Source: Scatophagus argus
Taxonomy: Eukaryota > Chordata > Actinopteri > Scatophagidae
Direction: 5' to 3'
Assembly: GCF_020382885.2 (NCBI RefSeq)
Contig: NC_058511.1
Location: forward strand, 2,263,501 to 2,327,500
Length of the DNA stretch: 64,000 nucleotides
In this document: positions 3,266 to 15,753 of the stretch, in pieces
Numbering within the stretch: the stretch's first letter is position 1
How the letters are laid out: each line of letters opens with the position of its first letter
Program-made: the position numbers and the translations under genes
The notes under the pieces: generated by a model
Database searches by the model: none
Told to the model about the DNA's origin: nothing
What the model saw: only the letters and a program-made list of their open reading frames with translations

Positions 3266-3354
3266 CAGATTCTTCAGTTCATCATACAACTACGCAACAT
3301 TTCAGAGACAGTCAGGAGTTCAGAGGAGACAGGCTAAACAACAAGAGAGACACG

Positions 3355-5294
3355 ATGGATGATTTCAAATGGATTAAAATGTCTTTATTACTGTTGCTTG
3401 AGTTTACAGGTAGGCATGAAAAAACAATATACAGGAACAGCCAGATTCATATTTCATCTTATTTTCCTCTCTCATCTTATCGACAGCAGTGACTGGACAG
3501 CGTAGCCCCCACTTTGTTGTCAGAGATGGAGAAGAAGTGACTTTGCCTTGTGACAACAGGAGAGATGATCTGCACAGATGTGATGAGATTGACTGGCTCT
3601 TCGCTGATCCTGAAAACAGACCAGCAGTTTTGCTGGTTAAACTTGGACAGATTGGTGAACAGGCCAGAACCAAATCAGACAGACTGAGTGTCACAAACAG
3701 CTGTTCTCTGGATATAAAGAAGGTCTCAGCTGAGGATGTTGGTCGTTACATCTGCAGACAGTCAGGACATCAAGATGTTAATGTTGATCTGTCTGTGGTC
3801 ACCAGTGAGTATTTACATCATAAAGTTTTCAGCTCAGACTGTGAAACATTACAATAATTCTGATTACTGTGATGAAGTTCATTTTGCTCTTGTTGTCTTT
3901 CTCTCACAATGTCTCCATCTTCACCAGTGACTGAACGTGAGGACGCTGATGAGGTGACATTAAGCTGCTCTGTGAGGACATATGGACCATGTGGACACAC
4001 AGTGAAGTGGCTGAATGAGGGTGAAGAAGTGAATGAAGGTGAAGATGACATGAAGACATCAGGGTCTGACTGCTCAGTGACTGTGACACTTCGTTCCTCT
4101 TTTGTCAAGCAAAAGTCAAAGTATCGCGAGCAGTTCAAGTGTGAAGTGACTGATCGTGTGACTCAAACAGTGCAGCAGTTCACCTTTAGGCATCAGTCCT
4201 CAGGTGAGAAACCAGGTGAGGAGCTGTTTGAAATCACTTCATCCTGATTCAACAGGTCTCAAGTGTTTGAAGTTTTAACATGACATCATTCTGTGTTTGT
4301 ATGAACACGAGGGATTTTCTCAGTGAGCATCATGTGGGTTTTTGTCTTTTAATTTGTCAGGTGAGGAAGTAACAACAACAATAGCAACAACAACAACAAC
4401 AGCAGCAGCAGCAGCAGCAACAACAACAACAACACAAGGCGGTGAGAATCAAAGACGTTTTCTTGTGTGTTCAACATGAAACAAATGCTGTGGATTTGTG
4501 TGGAGGACGACCGACTGACTTTGTCATCCCTGCAGTCGCTAACACGACTAAACACACGTGTTGTGCTTCTGATTTCTGAGCCCAACTTTCTCGTCTGACG
4601 TTATTGTTGTGTTCCACAGCTCGTACAGATCGTTCTGTTCTGGACTACATGATGTTGGTTCTGCGTGTGGCTGAACTCCTCCTCATTACTCTGATTGCTG
4701 TTCTTCTCATCAGAGCTGCAGGTGAGAACATTCAGACCAACATTTGTTCAGACTGACCAACACAAACTGGAAGTTTGGAGCTGAAATGTTCCTCTGTGCT
4801 TTATTTTCCAGGGAAGCAGAGACCACCTGATGACAACACTGTGAGTTGAACAGAAACACTGAAGTGAAGCCGTGTGTAAAATTCAAAATGTGTATCAATG
4901 ATCAGGGACTGTGAGTCAGTGTAGATGATGAGAAGCTGCTGCTGCTAACTGTTCATGTTACTGTAATGCAGGACTGTGAACGTCTCACCGTTTGTGTCTG
5001 TGCAGGTTTCACACTCAGTCAGAAGGCGGACGGCGAGGCGTTCAGGTGCAGCAGCCGGTCAGGTAAAGGTCAGCTCAGACAGGAGGTGGTGGTGCGTTCA
5101 GGTGCTGTCAGATTATTTCTTGTGTCCTGGTGTTTAATGTGGCTCAGTGGTGTGAAAGTGGTCAGTTAAAGTGTGTCAGAGTGAGAGTTTGTTTGTGTTG
5201 TGTTTCACAGGTGAATAATGATGAAGATGAAGATGAAGGTGTGGTGAAATATGAAAACTTTGGAGAAACTTCTGCCTCTGTCAGCCTCCACTGA
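3355..5294 (+). CDS. Ig-superfamily innate immune receptor-like protein A (two Ig domains, charged membrane segment)
   Basis: Predicted exons are 3355-3409 (signal peptide, MDDFKWIKMSLLLLLEFT), 3487-3804 (V-like domain D1), 3928-4203 (D2), 4361-4441 (Thr/Ala stalk), 4620-4721 (membrane), 4812-4840, 5006-5062 and 5211-5294. They sum to 1002 nt, or 333 residues, with every junction in phase. Each Ig domain has four cysteines. In D1 these are LPC, HRC, NSCSL and the YIC of a DxGRYxC motif; in D2 they are SCS, GPCGH, SDCS and KCEV. The membrane stretch contains Arg and Glu (MLVLRVAELLL), the usual feature of receptors that pair with ITAM adaptors. The tail ends with an acidic run and VKYENF (5244-5261), a YxN SH2-binding type motif but not a canonical ITIM. 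The two penultimate tail exons are the least certain. The protein is probably a cell-surface receptor on leukocytes; the ligand is unknown. It is related in style to fish DICP/CD300/NITR-type receptors, but the exact family name is not assigned. Confidence 0.8.
4361..4441 (+). repeat. triplet-repeat exon encoding a Thr/Ala stalk
   Basis: The exon is mainly ACA and GCA codons (in-frame triplet microsatellite), giving runs of Thr and Ala between D2 and the membrane. The homologous exon at 14117-14302 is also ACA-rich but more than twice as long. Such stalks are usually O-glycosylated. Confidence 0.8.
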
Positions 5295-5710
5295 TCAACA
5301 ACTTCCACATCGACATGAAGTCATGAGAAAAAAGACTCCACTGCAGTTAAATAACATCACATTTACACGAGCAGTCGAAGCTTTTAGACAACAAAAACCT
5401 GATGAGATCATTTTCAGTTTGGGACGACTGCTTGTTTTTATTTCATTCATCAATGTGAGAAATGTTTGTGCGTTTTGTGTGCTGAGACATTTTAGTGTGA
5501 CTTTGGACAACAGCACTGATTTCATCTCATATCTGGAAGTCCACTGTGAGTTTTCTAAAACGTCTTCTCCTCCATCAGCTGTGAAAATCTTTATTTTCTG
5601 CAGTCACTTTAGAACTCAGCAGGTGGATTTCAGCTTCCTGGAACAGAAAAGATCATTTAACTCTTGTTGTTTTAGGATTTCCTGGTTGCTGCTGAAGCTT
5701 GAGCTCAGTT

Positions 5711-8261: not shown

Positions 8262-9605
8262 TCAAAGTCAAAGTGTACTTTATTGTCAAAAATCTATGTA
8301 ACAGGGGTTAGCACAGAAAATTGAAATTTCGTTTGACCAGTCTCCAATGTGCAGTTAAAAACTAAACATGTAGGTAAGACAGTGACAATAATTACACACA
8401 CACACACACACACCCATACACATACAGTGTGCAGTAAAAGGACAACATACTGATACAAACATGTGCAATAAATACACACACACACACAGTCACAGCAGCA
8501 GAAGTACAGTCAATGGACATACAGGTATGTGCAGTAGTGTAGATGCAGTATGTAAGGTGCAAAGAGTAAAGTGCGAGTGACATGTCATGAAATGTTCATG
8601 AAGTGTTCATCAGTGTGTTGATGAGTCTGATGGCTTGTGGAAAGAAGCTGTTTCTCAGTCTGCTTGTGCGGCACCGCATGTTGCGGTAGCGCCTCCCTGA
8701 TGGTCGTAGGGAGAACAGTTTATGTGCTGGGTGAGTGGGGTCTTTGATGATGGTCATTGCTCTTCTGGAACAGTGTGAGGTGTAGAGGTCCTGAATGGCT
8801 GGTAGTGGTGATCTGATGATCTTTTCTGCAGTCCTCACCACCCTCTGTAGTGCCTTCTTGTCTGCAGCTAGACAGCTGCCTGCCAGACAGAGAGGCTGCT
8901 GGTCAGGATGCTCTCGATGGCACCCCTGTAGAAGATGGTGAGTGCAGATGTGGGGAGGTCAGCTCTTCTCATCCTCCGCAGGACATGGAGTCGTGCCTGT
9001 GCTTTTTTGACCAGGGAGGTGGTGTTTGTGGTCCATGTGAGGTCTTCTGTGATGTGCACTCCAAGGAACTTTGTGCTTTTCACAGACTCCACAGCACTGC
9101 CATTGATGAAGAGTGGGATGTGTGTTGGTTGTTTTTTTCCTGAAGTCCACAGTTATCTCTTTTGTTTTGTTGACGTTGAGTGACAGGTTGTTCCTCTCAC
9201 ACCAGTTGATGAGTTGGTGTACCTCCTCCCTGTATGCTGAGTCGTCGTCGTCACTGATGAGTCCCACCACTGTTGTGTCATCAGCAAAGTTGATGATGTG
9301 ATTTGTTGCAGATCTGGCACAGCAATCATGGGTCATCAGTGTGAACAGCAGAGGAGAAAGCACACATCCTTGTGGCACCCCGGTGTTTATGATGGTGGTC
9401 GCTGAGGAGTTGTTTCCGACTCTGACTGTCTGCGGTCTGTTTGTGAGGAAGTCCAGCAGCCAGTTGCACAGTGGAGTGTTGATGCCTATTTCACTCAGCT
9501 TGTTCACCAGATGTTGGGGGATGACAGTGTTGAACGCGGAGCTGAAGTCGATGAACAGCATCCGTGCGTTACTGTTTTTGTTTTCCAATGTTTGTGAAAT
9601 GTTTG
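8262..9605 (-). mobile_element. 5'-truncated L2-type (CR1/Jockey group) LINE
   Basis: The minus strand encodes a reverse transcriptase fragment. It has [18 protein letters not shown], then [15 protein letters not shown], then the catalytic box [11 protein letters not shown], then [17 protein letters not shown]. After frameshifts, [12 protein letters not shown] (9092-8868) and the C-terminal part with PSGRRYRNMRCRTSRLRNSF (8841-8596) follow. The 3' end carries a tail with ACTTTATTGTC on + (8277-8289) and two short CA tracts. The 5' half, including any endonuclease, is missing, as is usual for target-primed insertion. It sits inside the Harbinger transposase gene. Confidence 0.8.
8394..8488. 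repeat. two short (CA)n tracts in the LINE 3' UTR
   Basis: CA runs are visible at about 8394-8414 and 8472-8488. Confidence 0.8.
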
Positions 9606-10399
9606 TGCTCTGACATTTAAAGGTAATAGTCAATGTGTGTACCTGCGCATTAATGCTGTATTATATACACGTGTGTATTATTGATGGCTCTGACAAGCTT
9701 GTGGCCAGAAAAAACAACAAAAACTGAGAGAAACATCACAGGCAAACAGGTGCTTTACTTATGTGCTCTGCATCTCCAGTGTTGTATAAAACTCTCCCGT
9801 TTGCAAAAACGTAGAGCAACGCAAAGTATCTGTTCAGTGGTGAGTTCACGGCCACGGTGGGTGATGTGAGTGATGACAGGACGGATGAGGCTGTGAATGA
9901 ATTGCAGTGACTGTAACGAAAAACGATCAGGCTCATATAAAAAGTTGGGACAGGATGAAAGATTATCCAGACGTGCTCGGAAAATCCTCGCCCGACGCAA
10001 TCACATTTCTGTGTGAATCAGTAGCTTCTTCGTCCACAGGCTCCTCCAGAAACGGACCTGCCATTTTCATGTGAAGTTTACAGACTGGACGGAGACTCAG
10101 TGAATAAGGAAACGGTTCAGGCTTATGTTCCGTAAAGGGGAGGAGTCAGAGACAAACTCGGGGTTTCCGGAATAAAACCCGCTCCCGACCAGGTTATGTT
10201 CACAGACTAAGATATCGCGGTAACAGACTCTGAGTATGAGTTAACTCGCTTTATGAAACGGGCTTAACTTACTCCTTAACTTCCCCCGATCTCGGGGTTA
10301 ACTTACCTCCCTTATTGAAAGGGTTAACTCAGGGTGTCGCTGATTTCAGGCTCAACATGTGCAGGGTTTCCACATAACCTGCTTCATGAAACAGGAGCC

Positions 10400-10958
10400 T
10401 GGTGTGGAAGCCTCTCAGCCTGGGATTTGTTACTGTTGATGTGTTTGAATGTAGTGTCTTCATTGGTGTTAATTTAGTGCCATTACTAAACATTAATGTT
10501 CCACAGTAACATTAATAAATCCCATGGAGTTGGCTGTTTTAAAGGTGTCTTTACTGTGGCTGGTCTGGGTCAGTGTAAAGCCGTACAACCTCCCTCCTCT
10601 GGTCCACTTCCAGCAGTAAACCTTCTCTCTGTTGGCTTGAACAGCTCTGTTCTCACTGGACACTAAAACATGTCTGAACGCACAACAAAATGCACCCAAA
10701 GCGACTCTTCACTGTCTGTTCACGTGTCAAACATCACCGTGAATCCTGTCTGTGTTCTAATCAACGCTGAAGAAAACAAGGTGCATTACAGCCAACATTG
10801 ATCTTAACGAACAAACTGCACACGTTCAACTTCCTCTTTTTCTCCTTCTTCTTCTTCTCAGGTTGTGAAACACGTCATCATCACAAATACACTGTGGGAC
10901 TTGACGAAGTGTGAAGTTGAGGTTCAGCTTGAACATTAATAAAGCTGAAAGTCACAAT
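10400..10958. other. intergenic spacer
   Basis: Sequence between the Harbinger right end and the promoter of Ig unit B. No coding or RNA feature was recognised. Confidence 0.5.
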
Positions 10959-10989
10959 GAGGAAGTGACATCTCGCTGTCCACAGGAAG
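10959..10989 (+). promoter_or_regulatory. paired ETS/PU.1-like sites in the promoter of Ig unit B
   Basis: GAGGAAGTGACA (10959-10970) and ACAGGAAG (10982-10989) have the same order and 23-bp spacing as at 3235-3265. They lie 128 bp upstream of the start codon at 11087. Confidence 0.45.
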
Positions 10990-11009
10990 TAGGTGCAGCA
11001 TCTTTCTAC

Positions 11010-11054
11010 TTTCGAGACTCAGACTTTAGAGACTCAGACTTTCGAGACTCAGAC
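11010..11054 (+). repeat. three tandem 15-bp units in the 5' UTR or promoter of Ig unit B
   Basis: TTTCGAGACTCAGAC is repeated three times, with one substitution pair in the middle unit (TTTAGAGACTCAGAC). It is not seen upstream of the other Ig genes. Confidence 0.9.
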
Positions 11055-11086
11055 AGTAACCAGAACAAGACAGACTGAGAATCACG

Positions 11087-11687
11087 ATGGACGAGTTCAA
11101 ATGGATTCAAATGTCTTCATTTGTTCTCCTGACGCTTCAGTTTACAGGTAAGATTCCACACATCACATCTACAAAACAATAACTTCATCTAAACTATTAA
11201 AGATACTTTATGATCGACTTTTCATTTCACTAAGACAACCAAAATGTGTTGTTTGTCTCCAACATGTTGACTTTAGTGAACTCTTGGAAACGAGGACAAA
11301 GAAAACAACCATCACACTAACTCTGATAAACATTTTCATCATTTTCTCTCATCTTCTTCACAGCAGCAGCTGATCAACACTTCACTGTGAGAGATGGAGT
11401 TCAGGTCAGTTTGCCTTGTGACAACAGGAGAGATGATCTGCACGGATGTGATGAGGTTTACTGGTACTTCACTGATCATGGAAACAGAGCAGCAGGATGG
11501 CTGGTTGAGCGAGGACAGATTGGTGAACAGGCCAGAACCAAATCAGACAGACTGAGTGTCACAAACAGCTGTTCTCTGGTTATAAAGAAGGTCTCAGCTG
11601 AGGATGTTGGTCGTTACCTCTGTGTGCAGTACAAATCAGGACAACTACAAGGTCCAGACTCTCAGGTTGATCTGTCTGTGGTCACCA
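11087..11687 (+). CDS. Ig receptor unit B: signal peptide plus V-like domain
   Basis: Exon 11087-11147 encodes a signal peptide (MDEFKWIQMSSFVLLTLQFT) and ends in phase 1 at GTAAGA. Exon 11364-11687 encodes one V-like domain with the family hallmarks FTVRDGVQVSLPC, DLHGCDEVYW, GQIGEQARTKSDRLSVTNSC and VSAEDVGRYLCVQ, ending VVT and GTGAGT. No second Ig, stalk or membrane exon follows before the next unit. The first about 55 bp of the next intron match the paralogues almost exactly, and then the sequence turns into unrelated DNA. B is therefore either the remains of a duplicated gene or the 5' end of a longer gene that splices into the exons at 13229-15753. All junction phases allow this: leader + V + V + D2 + stalk + membrane + tail sums to 512 residues. 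Confidence 0.7.
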
Positions 11688-11744
11688 GTGAGTATTTACA
11701 TCATAAAGTTTTCAGCTCAGACTGTGAAACATTACAATAATTCT

Positions 11745-12480
11745 GCGTTTCCTTAACAAGTAAAAGTACTCATGTTGCAGTAAAATGTTCCCTGTCAGTG
11801 TGTTCCTGTTCTACCTGCTGTATTTGGATTAATATTCCTGCTGCTTTTCACTGCTGTAGATGTTTGGGCTCATCTGAACTGCTTTCTGTGCTGTTGGCAG
11901 CTTTAATCTCCAGCAGTGCATCAGATTCAATCAGATCATCATGTGTTTGGAGCCTGACTGTCCTGTGAGAACCACAGACCTCTGAACAGTTTCCTCACCT
12001 CACAAAGTCAGCCTGTTTTCAGCTCTGTGAAGATGCAGCTTCCACCTCAACCAGGAGGCTTTTTCCAGTTTATTCAGCTGAAGATGGAGGAGAAATCATC
12101 CTTTAATCCTTCACTGTTGGTTGCAGTTAAAGATGTTTTCGTTTCTCCTGGCGTTTCTGTCTCAGCTGTTGTTGTTTGATATGCCGTCATTTTAAGATGT
12201 GTGCGTCTGTTCAGCTTGTTTCTAATGTTGTGCTGTGAGAGTAATTAAAATAAACCAGGAGGAGGAGGGACAGTGTTCATCCTGACTGAGTCACTTGTGA
12301 GAGTTAAACAGCTGATTGAGAGGACCCTGTGGAAACCCCAAAGGCTTCACTTTTCACTGCTGTTGATACTTCAGCTCAGTGCGACCTTCACAGCAGCTCA
12401 TGTCAGCCATAAGTGAAGGAGGAAGCTGAGAGCTGATGTGCTCTGCCTTCATTAAAGCAACAGTTGTGAGTGAAAAGAAG
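11745..12480. other. spacer with probable repeat fragment
   Basis: The paralogous intron identity ends at about 11743. The following AGTAAAAGTACTCATGTTGCAG-type text resembles a dispersed fish repeat. No D2 exon equivalent is found. Confidence 0.35.
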
Positions 12481-12495
12481 GATGACAGTCACTGT

Positions 12496-12525
12496 GAGGA
12501 GGTCACTCTTTATTATGACAGGAAG
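12496..12525 (+). promoter_or_regulatory. promoter motif pair of Ig unit C, first site altered
   Basis: GAGGAGGTCACT (12496-12507) and GACAGGAAG (ACAGGAAG at 12518-12525) align with the two conserved promoter motifs of the paralogues. The first GGAA core is changed to GGAG and the spacing is one base shorter. This fits a decayed promoter for unit C. Confidence 0.4.
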
Positions 12526-12601
12526 TTGACGCAACATTTTTCTGTAAGAAGCTTGAGTGTAGAGACTCACAAGTCGAGGAAGCAGAGAGAAAAGAGACAC
12601 G

Positions 12602-12622
12602 ATGGCTGGATTCAGATGGGGT
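12602..12622 (+). pseudogene. interrupted leader exon of Ig unit C
   Basis: The text GAGACACGATGGCTGGATTCAG aligns with the start-codon context and first codons of the leaders at 3355 and 11087 (MDDFKW, MDEFKW, here MAGFRW). The similarity stops after about 20 coding bases, where a transposon-like sequence starts. The rest of the leader is not recognisable beyond the insertion. Confidence 0.65.
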
Positions 12623-13123
12623 TGTCACGTCCTGGTTTTCTGCCTGTTGATTTTTGGTCCATGTGTCATGTTTCATGTGTGTTTTCGTGTGTTATGTTCA
12701 AGGTTTTTGTCATGTCCTGTTTTATTTTGAAAGCGTCACTTCCCCCTGTGTGTCTCTGTTTTCTGTAGCTTTGCTTTTGTTTAACCTGATTGCTTTCTCC
12801 TCCGTCGATGTGTCTCACCTGATGTGTCTTGTTATCTCGTCTATTTAGTCCTCGTCTTCCCCGTCGCTGGTGTCAGTGCGTTATATTGTCTTTTGTCCCA
12901 TGCCAGGATTTGTATCGTCTCCATGCTTTTGATGCCAGAAAACTCTTGACTCGTCTTGTTGTACTTTTTGTTGATCCTTGCCCCAGTAAGCGTGTGCCTG
13001 TTTTTTTGAGTTTCTTTGTTAGAAAATAAAGAAAATAGTTTTGGATCTCGGCCTGCCTGCCCTTTCTTGACTCTGCATCGGGGTTCAATCCTCTGCGTCA
13101 GCGACGCCGCTTCCTTTGTGACA
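12623..13123 (+). mobile_element. about 500-bp transposon-like insertion in an Ig leader exon
   Basis: The segment starts TGTCACGTCC and ends TTTGTGACA, giving short inverted ends TGTCAC/GTGACA. It is flanked on both sides by GGGGT(T), a possible target duplication. Its interior (…CCCTGTGTGTCTCTG…, AAATAAAGAAAATAG near 13024) resembles a dispersed non-autonomous fish repeat. The class is not assigned. Confidence 0.55.
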
Positions 13124-13228
13124 GGGGTTAACTCTAACCCTTTGGGTTATGCAAACTTTCATCCTCACGCTGACATTAATAGTCTTTTTTATTTCTCTTG
13201 ATTCTTTCTTTCTCTCTCATCCTCACAG

Positions 13229-15753
13229 CAGCAGCGACCCGACAGCTTGTCCTCCACTTCACTGTCAGAGATGGAGATCAAGTCAGTTTGCCGTGTAATA
13301 ATATGATCGACGGTCAGCAGGAATGTGACAGCACAACATGGATCTTCAGTGGTTTAAGACGAGACACAGGAACAGTAGAGCTGATTACCCTCGGACAGAT
13401 TGGTGAACAGGCCAAAACCAAATCAGACAGACTGAGTGTCACAAAGAACTGTTCTCTGGTTATAAAGAAGGTCTCAGCTGAGGATGTTGGTCGTTACACC
13501 TGCAGACAGTTTGACAAATCAGGACAACAAGGTCCAGACTCTCTGGTTGATCTGTCTGTGGTCACCAGTGAGTATTTACATCATAAAGTTTTCAGCTCAG
13601 ACTGTGAAACATTACAATAATTCTGATTACTGTGATGAAGTTCATTTTGCTCTTGTTGTCTTTCTCTCACAATGTCTCCATCTTCACCAGTGACTGAACG
13701 TGAGGACGCTGGTGAGGTGACATTAAGCTGCTCTGTGTTGACATATGAGCGATGTGGACACACAGTGAAGTGGCTGTTTAATAGAACTGATGTGGATAAA
13801 GAAAACCACCAAGTGAAGACATCACAGTCTTCCTGCTCTGCCTCTCTGAAGGTTCCGACTTCTCATTTCATTTATGACTCGAGGTTTGACTTGAAGTGTG
13901 AAGTGACTGATGGGGACAAAGTTCAGTTTCTCTTCAGTCCTCGGCCCTCAGGTGAGAAACCAGGTGAGAACATGTTGAGCTGTTTAAAGTCACTTCAAAA
14001 GTGACATGAAGATTTACCTCAAATATTTGTTTCATTTATGGATTTGAAGTTTCAATATCACATCACAACACACGTTTTGCACTGAGCAGTTTGTTGAGTT
14101 GTGTTCATCTGTTCAGGTGAGGACACAACAAGAACAACAAAGCCAACAACAAAGCCAACAACAACAACAAAGCCAACAACAAAGCCAACAACTAAGCCAA
14201 CAACAACAACAAAGCCAACAACAACTACAACGTCATCATCAACAACAACAACAGCAACAATGACAACAACCAATGATATTACAGCAGGACCACCAAACAG
14301 CAGTGAGTCAGCATTTTTCTCTTTGTGTTTGTACTAAACTCACAGTTAGCAAAGACATGCAGGCAGAAGAACTTTTAGATCCTGACAGACACTTTGTGTG
14401 TCTGTGTTTCCTGCTTTGTGTTGTCTCATCAGTAAATGGTTGAATGTTTCGGCTGTAGACAAATCAGTATTTTAAAATGTTCCTGACATTCGCGCAGACC
14501 CAATGACAGAAGCAAACAAACCCACAGCCGACCAATCAAAGCCGTCAAATGCAAATCACATGTAACTCTCTTCTGTTTTAGCTCAGTGGTTTTGATCAGA
14601 ACAGGAAGCTGCAGCCAAAACACTTCCAGTATTTTCTTAATCTTTCCAGGCTGGTGGTTGTACGTCCTTGTGGCTGTGGCTTTGCTCGCACTTTTAATAA
14701 TTGTAGTGAAAGTCATCAGATGGAGGAGAAGTAAAGGTGAGAGCACAGAGCAAACTTTTCTACACAAGAAGTTTTAACCAAAGTGGGTTTTCTCTCTGGA
14801 AGCTAAAATCAACTCTTTTTGTCTTTTCAGGGAGCCAAACTGGGATGAAGGACGATGTTGTGAGTTTAAAAACTGTTCTTCACTTTAAGTTTTGATTCTC
14901 CAGCTGAGAGAGGATCAGATTAGATCAACAGCACTGACTGTGTTGCATTAAAACTCAGTAAAACTCATGTAAGCACACTGTGTTTGTCCAGGGACTGACC
15001 TCAAACCCTGCAGGGACTCAGTCTGCTCCAGAACCCAGTCAGGACACAGTGAGTTCACACCCCAAGCCCAGTACAGAGTGACACTCTGAGGCTGCGCTTT
15101 ACGTCATGTGGTCTCTGGAGACCAAAATGTGAAAATAAAAAGAGAAGTCAGATGATGAAACTGGACCACAGCAGAAATCACCACCAGTGGGTAGTAAAAG
15201 CAGAGGTCAGAGGTCAAGCTGCCGTGTAACATGTAGAGTCACAACGCGACCTCCTGGGCAGAATTTCAAATAATGTTAAAGCAGAATGGAGTGAAGTTCG
15301 AGGTGTGAGTCAGTATGAATCCACACGTCACTGAGCAGCCATGTTGTCTTCTCTGTGCAGGCTGATCCTGAAGACGGAGTTTCTTACGCCTCCATCAGCT
15401 ACACCAAGAAGACCAACAGGAAAGGCCGGGTAAGCTGTCTGTTTGGTTCTGCTGCTGATGGCAGTCAATGAAAACACTTCTCATCCCAGCTCGTCCGATC
15501 CCGACGCGTTTTCACGGGCCTCTTGTCTCTTGTCCAGCCTCACCAGACACCCTTTAAGGGCCAGTTGTGTTTCTTTGGTCTTGTGTATTCCATTTGTTGT
15601 GCTTTTTGTTTGTTTTTTATTTTCAAGGTTCTGCGTGAAGATGAACATGACGACGCAGTGACTTACAGCACTGTGATAGCTGCTTCTTCTTCTTCTTCTG
15701 CCTCTGCTGATCCCAGCAGCTTCTACGCCACCATCAACAAACGGAAGCAATAA
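13229..15753 (+). CDS. Ig-superfamily inhibitory receptor-like protein C (V, D2, Thr-rich stalk, membrane, three ITIM-like motifs)
   Basis: Predicted exons are 13229-13567 (V-like D1), 13691-13951 (D2), 14117-14302 (Thr/Pro stalk), 14650-14736 (membrane, WWLYVLVAVALLALLIIVV then RWRRSK), 14831-14859, 14992-15048, 15361-15429 and 15628-15753. D1 keeps VRDGDQVSLPC, GQIGEQAKTKSDRLSV, NCSL and DVGRYTCRQ. D2 keeps CSVLTYERCGHTVKWLF and LKCEVTD. The tail has VSYASI (15379-15396), VTYSTV (15658-15675) and SFYATI (15718-15735). All three fit the (I/V/L/S)xYxx(I/V/L) pattern that recruits SH2 phosphatases when phosphorylated. The unit lacks an intact leader of its own (see 12602-12622) and may use the leader and V exon at 11087-11687. 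Neighbouring intron 13568-13690 is nearly identical to intron 3805-3927 of gene A. Probably an inhibitory leukocyte receptor; ligand unknown. Confidence 0.8.
14117..14302 (+). repeat. ACA-rich exon encoding a Thr/Pro stalk
   Basis: The exon reads as repeated TTKP and TTTTKP units followed by Thr/Ser runs. It is an in-frame triplet expansion of a mucin-like stalk, more than twice the length of the homologous 81-bp exon at 4361. Confidence 0.85.

Follow-up and report, generated by a model that had tools for sequence, protein, structure and literature searches.

The diverse Ig-domain proteins (DICP) of teleosts follow a D1-D2-transmembrane-ITIM plan, with immunoglobulin (Ig) domains outside the cell and immunoreceptor tyrosine-based inhibitory motifs (ITIMs) in the tail, and are linked to MHC class I in zebrafish. 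NITR, also of teleosts, are clustered V-type receptors with ITIMs that undergo birth-and-death evolution (PMC2442602). In primates, tandem Ig/ITIM genes have merged by deletion and recombination into KIR fusion genes, which shuffle binding and signalling parts and have transposable elements at their breakpoints (PMC7516082).

Here we analyse a stretch of 64,000 nucleotides from the fish Scatophagus argus (NC_058511.1, here C19, positions 2263501-2327500, of a 570.7-Mb genome in 48 contigs). This stretch, hereafter the window, holds two adjacent Ig-receptor units, B and C, both incomplete, and a probable retroelement remnant at the break in C's leader. It is probable (roughly 0.6), judging from the sequence, that B and C now form a single hybrid receptor gene. 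The locus resembles NITR as a cluster of fish V-type receptors with ITIMs (PMC2442602), and KIR as a probable fusion by deletion of tandem Ig/ITIM receptor genes (PMC7516082). It differs from KIR in that a leader exon makes up most of what is joined and would serve a gene that has lost its own leader, and in that the hybrid arrangement has been copied to four places.

Results

A joined open frame across units B and C

The two units have the following parts, in window positions; A is a further receptor unit of the window, and E1, E2 and H are sister units of C elsewhere on C19.

10900..11086, + strand: B-type upstream / 5' untranslated region, homologous to regions upstream of other B-type leaders
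11087..11147, + strand: B leader exon, MDEFKWIQMSSFVLLTLQFT, open, with donor CAG/GTAAGA
11364..11687, + strand: B V-set exon, open (Pfam V-set, E=3.8e-10)
11688..11745, + strand: remnant of B intron 2, a 58-base match that is identical at 7 other places and one base off at 1 in the stretches searched
11752..12439, + strand: intergenic sequence of the kind found after a unit's last exon; 11752-12310 match C19 2226632-2227192 at 98.9%
12440..12601, + strand: C-type upstream / 5' untranslated region, retained, ~99% identical to that upstream of E1, E2 and H
12602..12619, + strand: C leader remnant, codons 1-6 (MAGFRW), ATG at 12602, identical to the E1, E2 and H leaders through TGG
12618..12622, + strand: left target-site duplication GGGGT
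12623..13123, + strand: probable solo long terminal repeat (LTR), 501 bp, TG...CA, AATAAA at 13025
13124..13150, + strand: right duplication (13124-13128) and filler, its first 24 bases matched in the 4 LTR copies only, by a search that can miss matches; E2 and H match from base 25
13229..13567, + strand: C V-set exon, acceptor intact (Pfam V-set, E=9.3e-9)
13691..13951, + strand: C D2 Ig exon, a paralogue of A D2, with sub-threshold Pfam Ig matches only
14117..14302, + strand: Thr-rich stalk exon
14650..14736, + strand: transmembrane exon
14831-14859, 14992-15048, 15361-15429, 15628-15753, + strand: tail exons with three ITIMs

The V exons of A, B and C all pass the Pfam V-set cut-off, and A D2 passes that of C1-set. 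When the B leader and B V exon are placed before the C exons from V to tail, the 1539 nt encode 512 residues plus a stop; the B leader straight onto C V gives 404 residues. Translation of the joined exons puts the leader/V, V/D2, D2/stalk, stalk/transmembrane and transmembrane/tail junctions in phase 1 and the later tail introns in phase 0. The predicted product has a leader, V-set domain, transmembrane segment and tail with [SIVL]xYxx[IVL] motifs, the features of an ITIM receptor, and the leader is supplied by B only. The 102-residue tail holds three ITIM-type motifs (VSYASI, VTYSTV and SFYATI); 20,000 shuffles gave a mean of 0.125 and at least three with P=0.0001. Signalling through this tail would recruit an SHP phosphatase and be inhibitory. 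An earlier note on this DNA, made from its letters alone, had proposed just such a frame, with phase-1 Ig introns, 512 open residues and three ITIMs, and all of this holds.

The same note described B as a leader and V exon with nothing downstream, and we arrive at the same picture. Over the interval from B V to C V, a loose tblastn search with seven queries (V, D2 and membrane) reached no E better than 0.11, and so revealed no D2 relic or membrane exon; in a control stretch the same queries reach C's own D2 at 2e-59. The joint of the B deletion lies within 11745-11752. Sequence past it matches DNA that sits ~0.3 kb beyond the last exon of unit D, a copy of C introduced below, so B appears to have lost its gene end too.

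Four copies and a two-gene arrangement

The broken-leader unit exists four times: as C in the window and as D (2232 kb), F (2647 kb) and G (2655 kb) on C19. In an alignment running from the B upstream region to the start of D2, all four copies have an open B-type leader with the donor GTAAGATT and an intact C-type V acceptor. The B V exon is complete in the window copy only. D carries a deletion from intron 1 into this exon, which removes half of it together with the acceptor, and F and G share a separate deletion of the entire exon; both deletions leave leader and donor in place. In D, F and G, where B V is reduced to half or missing, the acceptor of C V is the next known one of the family after the B leader, and the V-V-D2 form is available in the window copy alone. 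What all four copies would have in common is the two-Ig form, with the B leader on C V. The possible fusion into a three-Ig receptor put forward by the earlier note is hence supported in part: a hybrid gene is the best reading, with a B-type leader and donor in four of four copies, while a third Ig domain would be confined to the window copy.

A two-gene counterpart of the pair lies at C19:2.867-2.872 Mb, where a B-type unit is followed by H, a C-type unit with an intact leader. By homology, the B-type unit at 2.867 Mb has a leader, V (324 nt, open), D2, stalk, membrane and tail exons, V being the sole frame checked apart from the leader and the last tail exon matching at 71%; its leader is open and its donor identical to that of B. 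Since a full B-type gene is still found there, the window's B would have lost everything from D2 to the tail. B+C can be derived from such a pair by two losses. E1 and E2 come after another unit's tail, and no orphan B leader was found upstream of E1, E2 or H in the sequence examined.

Units with the same V/D2 type end in two membrane/tail types: the ITIM tail in C, D and E1 (the last tail exon of E1 was not found in the sequence examined) and, in F, G and E2, an A-type tail whose membrane segment has charged residues. Because the membrane exon and tail of F and G are A-type, a borrowed leader would serve both kinds. In D the last tail exon follows the preceding one after ~2.5 kb (~0.2 kb in the window copy) through an insertion in the intron, and the exon is intact. 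The stalk repeat measures 93-354 nt in C, D, F, G and E1 (186, 354, 246 and 252 nt in the four LTR copies) and is a multiple of three in all five, a length that the repeat unit itself favours.

Open frames, variation and their alternatives

Read with the B leader, C and D are open through the last ITIM exon to the stop, G through its A-type tail to the stop (394 residues), and F through the second tail exon. The V frame stays open in C, D, F, G, E1, E2 and H, and that of D2 in C, D, F, G, E1 and E2. Among gap-free sites of the four copies, 40 of 594 vary in V+D2 against 24 of 1352 in flanking noncoding sequence (Fisher p=1e-7). The changes in V+D2 comprise 38 nonsynonymous and 4 synonymous ones, where random change would give 74% nonsynonymous (p=0.008). 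V+D2 contain no stop, and all their length differences are multiples of 3, while 1- and 2-bp indels are present in the aligned noncoding stretch. The excess of amino-acid change suggests the behaviour of a diversifying receptor domain, which is not in itself proof for the hybrids.

Several observations count against a functioning hybrid. The last exon of F was not found in the sequence examined. Gene conversion with intact relatives as donors could have brought in both the open frames and the surplus of amino-acid changes; counting columns with gaps, 10 of the 31 V columns that vary and 2 of the 22 in D2 share all their alleles with LTR-less units. Forty random changes would leave no stop with a chance of 18%, and four out of four copies are not four independent trials because the copies duplicate one event. 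Between B V and the B-type V at 2.867 Mb, dN is 0.058 and dS 0.056, values that show no constraint on B V. Finally, the B-to-C intron contains signals which could end transcripts early: AATAAA at 12249 and, within the LTR, at 13025, plus ATTAAA at 12244 and 12451.

The foremost rival explanation draws on the same data: B and C would be two pseudogene halves from which nothing useful is made, their frames open through youth or refreshed by gene conversion. The few differences at noncoding sites and the 18% chance of escaping a stop agree with it, as do a cluster unit that seems to be without a membrane exon (see below) and the last tail exons not found in E1 and F. Against it stand the nonsynonymous excess, the restriction of V and D2 indels to multiples of three when the noncoding sequence has others, and the repeated sparing of leader, donor and acceptor. 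We regard it as unlikely, though it is the rival to be taken most seriously.

It is improbable that B is a soluble single-V decoy, ending in its intron or at 12249, beside a silent C. The AATAAA at 12249 would suit such a product, and read-through into the B intron gives a short tail and then a stop. However, A, C and other family members have this intron start and stop as well, and the same ATTAAAATAAA is also present upstream of E1, so neither is special to B. Moreover, D, F and G hold no complete B V to secrete, and the body of C stays open.

Damage to the C leader and the inserted element

E1 (2224 kb, minus strand), E2 (2643 kb, minus strand) and H (2871 kb, plus strand) have C's upstream region and are without the element; all three retain MAGFRWIKMSLFLMLLLQFT as a complete leader, with GTAAGG as its donor. 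In comparison with H and E2, the match of C ends after codon 6 and restarts at GCAAAC in intron 1 (E1, whose intron 1 is shorter, is unusable for this measurement). What is missing from C amounts to 208 bp of H or 210 bp of E2, namely the leader remainder, the splice donor and part of intron 1. In its place stand GGT, the element and then 27 bases that include the second GGGGT. With the element taken out, the joined flanks read ATG GCT GGA TTC AGA TGG GGT TAA, or MAGFRWG with a stop at codon 8.

Given this stop and the 208-210 bp lost, the element is no simple cut of a good leader. The earlier note had a transposon interrupting an intact C leader and so causing the fusion. Its element of about 500 bp, with the described ends and GGGGT at the break, is indeed there, and a 5-bp duplication at the break is what that version expects. 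The leader, however, is not split: a clean insertion would leave its second half adjoining, whereas this half is gone and the joined flanks run into a stop. We consider a transposon-caused fusion about as improbable as the secreted decoy. The most parsimonious order would be a break repaired with a ~208-bp loss and filler, followed by LTR insertion into the filler; the element is then probably a passenger, not the cause, of leader loss.

The element ends in TGTCAC/GTGACA with GGGGT on each side. In a genome search in which the best 40 of 1052 first-look candidates were scored, 44 matches were returned. Three other 99% copies lie in the receptor units D, F and G, at the same leader position, and the next-nearest copies among those scored are 82% alike. 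Independent LTR insertions are ruled out by these three copies, which occupy the same site in duplicated receptor genes. The window copy, D and G have GGGGT at either end, and F has GGAGT on the right. Among 10 copies outside the receptor cluster, a script detected an exact 5-bp duplication in five (L038, L039, L040, L042, L043) and inspection by eye one more in L008 (ACAAG); in L006 one appears only if the 5' end is shifted, L007 matches at 4 of 5 bases, and L005 and L041 have none. A solo LTR of an LTR retrotransposon fits the TG..CA ends, the length of ~500 bp, the single AATAAA and the 5-bp duplications, which most of the copies checked have. Compared with other solo LTRs the element is ordinary, and its location alone is of interest. 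The flanks of L005-L008 (1.5 kb per side) showed no clear LTR-linked gene; an open reading frame beside L005 matches Pfam DUF5641 (E=8.8e-6), and a zinc-knuckle-like one in L008 has no significant Pfam match.

That the LTR gives a stand-alone C a new signal peptide is the least probable reading of all: the frame from the C ATG enters the LTR as MAGFRWGCHVLVFCLLIFG..., is open for 42 codons in the window copy, is free of indels across the alignment and differs there at a single base (in D), and has a hydrophobic core (10-residue mean 3.2) above the three real leaders compared, but this attractive frame has no usable splice donor. On the matrix used, its best phase-1 GT before the stop scores -2.4 bits, compared with 7.0 bits for B's leader donor and 1.9-6.9 for the other donors scored.

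Family and cluster setting

The NITR J-like motif FGxGTxLxV is absent from the 512-residue joined protein, LSVVT ends 15 of 15 aligned V sequences, and D2 has 4 invariant cysteines (7 sequences), not the six of the NITR I domain. On both counts NITR identity is excluded. DICP would tentatively be the best fit for domain plan and V sequence style. As to the MHC class I linkage of DICP, none of the genome's 55 PF00129 matches falls on C19. DICP are also discussed in PMC8662705 and PMC6540555. A structure model of V (pLDDT 83.7) matches many V-set domains with no single family favoured, and sequence searches of solved structures likewise single out none; the D2 model was weak (pLDDT 63.5) and was not used.

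With the C V exon as a protein query, the genome yields 22 matches, 21 on C19 (1.99-2.87 Mb) and 1 on C5; the two at C19 1.99 Mb are just 38-40% identical. Two further receptor units belong to the window:

1-390: receptor unit cut by the window's left edge, with D2 at 77-355
3354-5300: unit A, with leader, V, D2, stalk and charged membrane segment

At C19:2026801-2030600 (L044), two A-like units stand in tandem. No membrane exon was found between the V/D2 of the first and the V/D2 of the next; the first is perhaps another 3'-truncated unit and might be read through. As for other V-V pairs, the close pair 2027531/2029422 has a D2 in between; V matches at 1.99, 2.034 and 2.046 Mb were left out.

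Other genes of the window were assigned by resemblance. In the region 17463-63000 we presume FABP-type exons at ~17.5-18.5 kb, SMPDL3-type exons at ~20.7-25.9 kb, CRAL-TRIO (clavesin-type) sequence near 37.8 and 57.2 kb, and Tc1-like transposase pieces near 24.7, 32.0 and 50.5 kb. A presumed LINE-like reverse transcriptase occupies 8959-9660 on the minus strand. An Rfam scan of the window at gathering scores gave no match.

Discussion

The observed anatomy, open frames, lost stretch, four copies and two-gene arrangement elsewhere point to a hybrid of B and C, whose transcription, splicing, signalling and order of events we infer as follows. Two tandem genes would have been reduced, the upstream one losing D2 to tail plus its gene end and the downstream one its leader remainder and leader splice donor. 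The LTR would have fallen into the lesion and been copied along afterwards. Transcription would start at the B promoter, the B leader would be used with its CAG/GTAAGA donor, and splicing would jump the dead C promoter and the LTR to reach the C V exon, producing an ITIM receptor that borrows its signal peptide. Inclusion of B V, available in the window copy, would yield V-V-D2-stalk-transmembrane-3 ITIM, and its skipping V-D2.

A bolder extension, which we put forward tentatively and think somewhat improbable, is that a leaderless receptor lineage permanently uses the promoter and signal-peptide exon of a deleted neighbour and has multiplied to four copies in this state; the window's leftover V would be a third, outermost Ig domain, and exon skipping would switch between two-Ig and three-Ig forms.

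The novelty is modest: the hybrid would belong to a known kind of event, as a variant in which a leader is borrowed, and its before and after states on one chromosome document it unusually well. Under this reading, receptor clusters evolve through loss as well as gain. A single chromosome would show the starting state (two adjacent genes), the lesion and, in four copies, the outcome, and therefore the steps from two broken neighbours to one gene, and the gain of an Ig domain, may be read from it.

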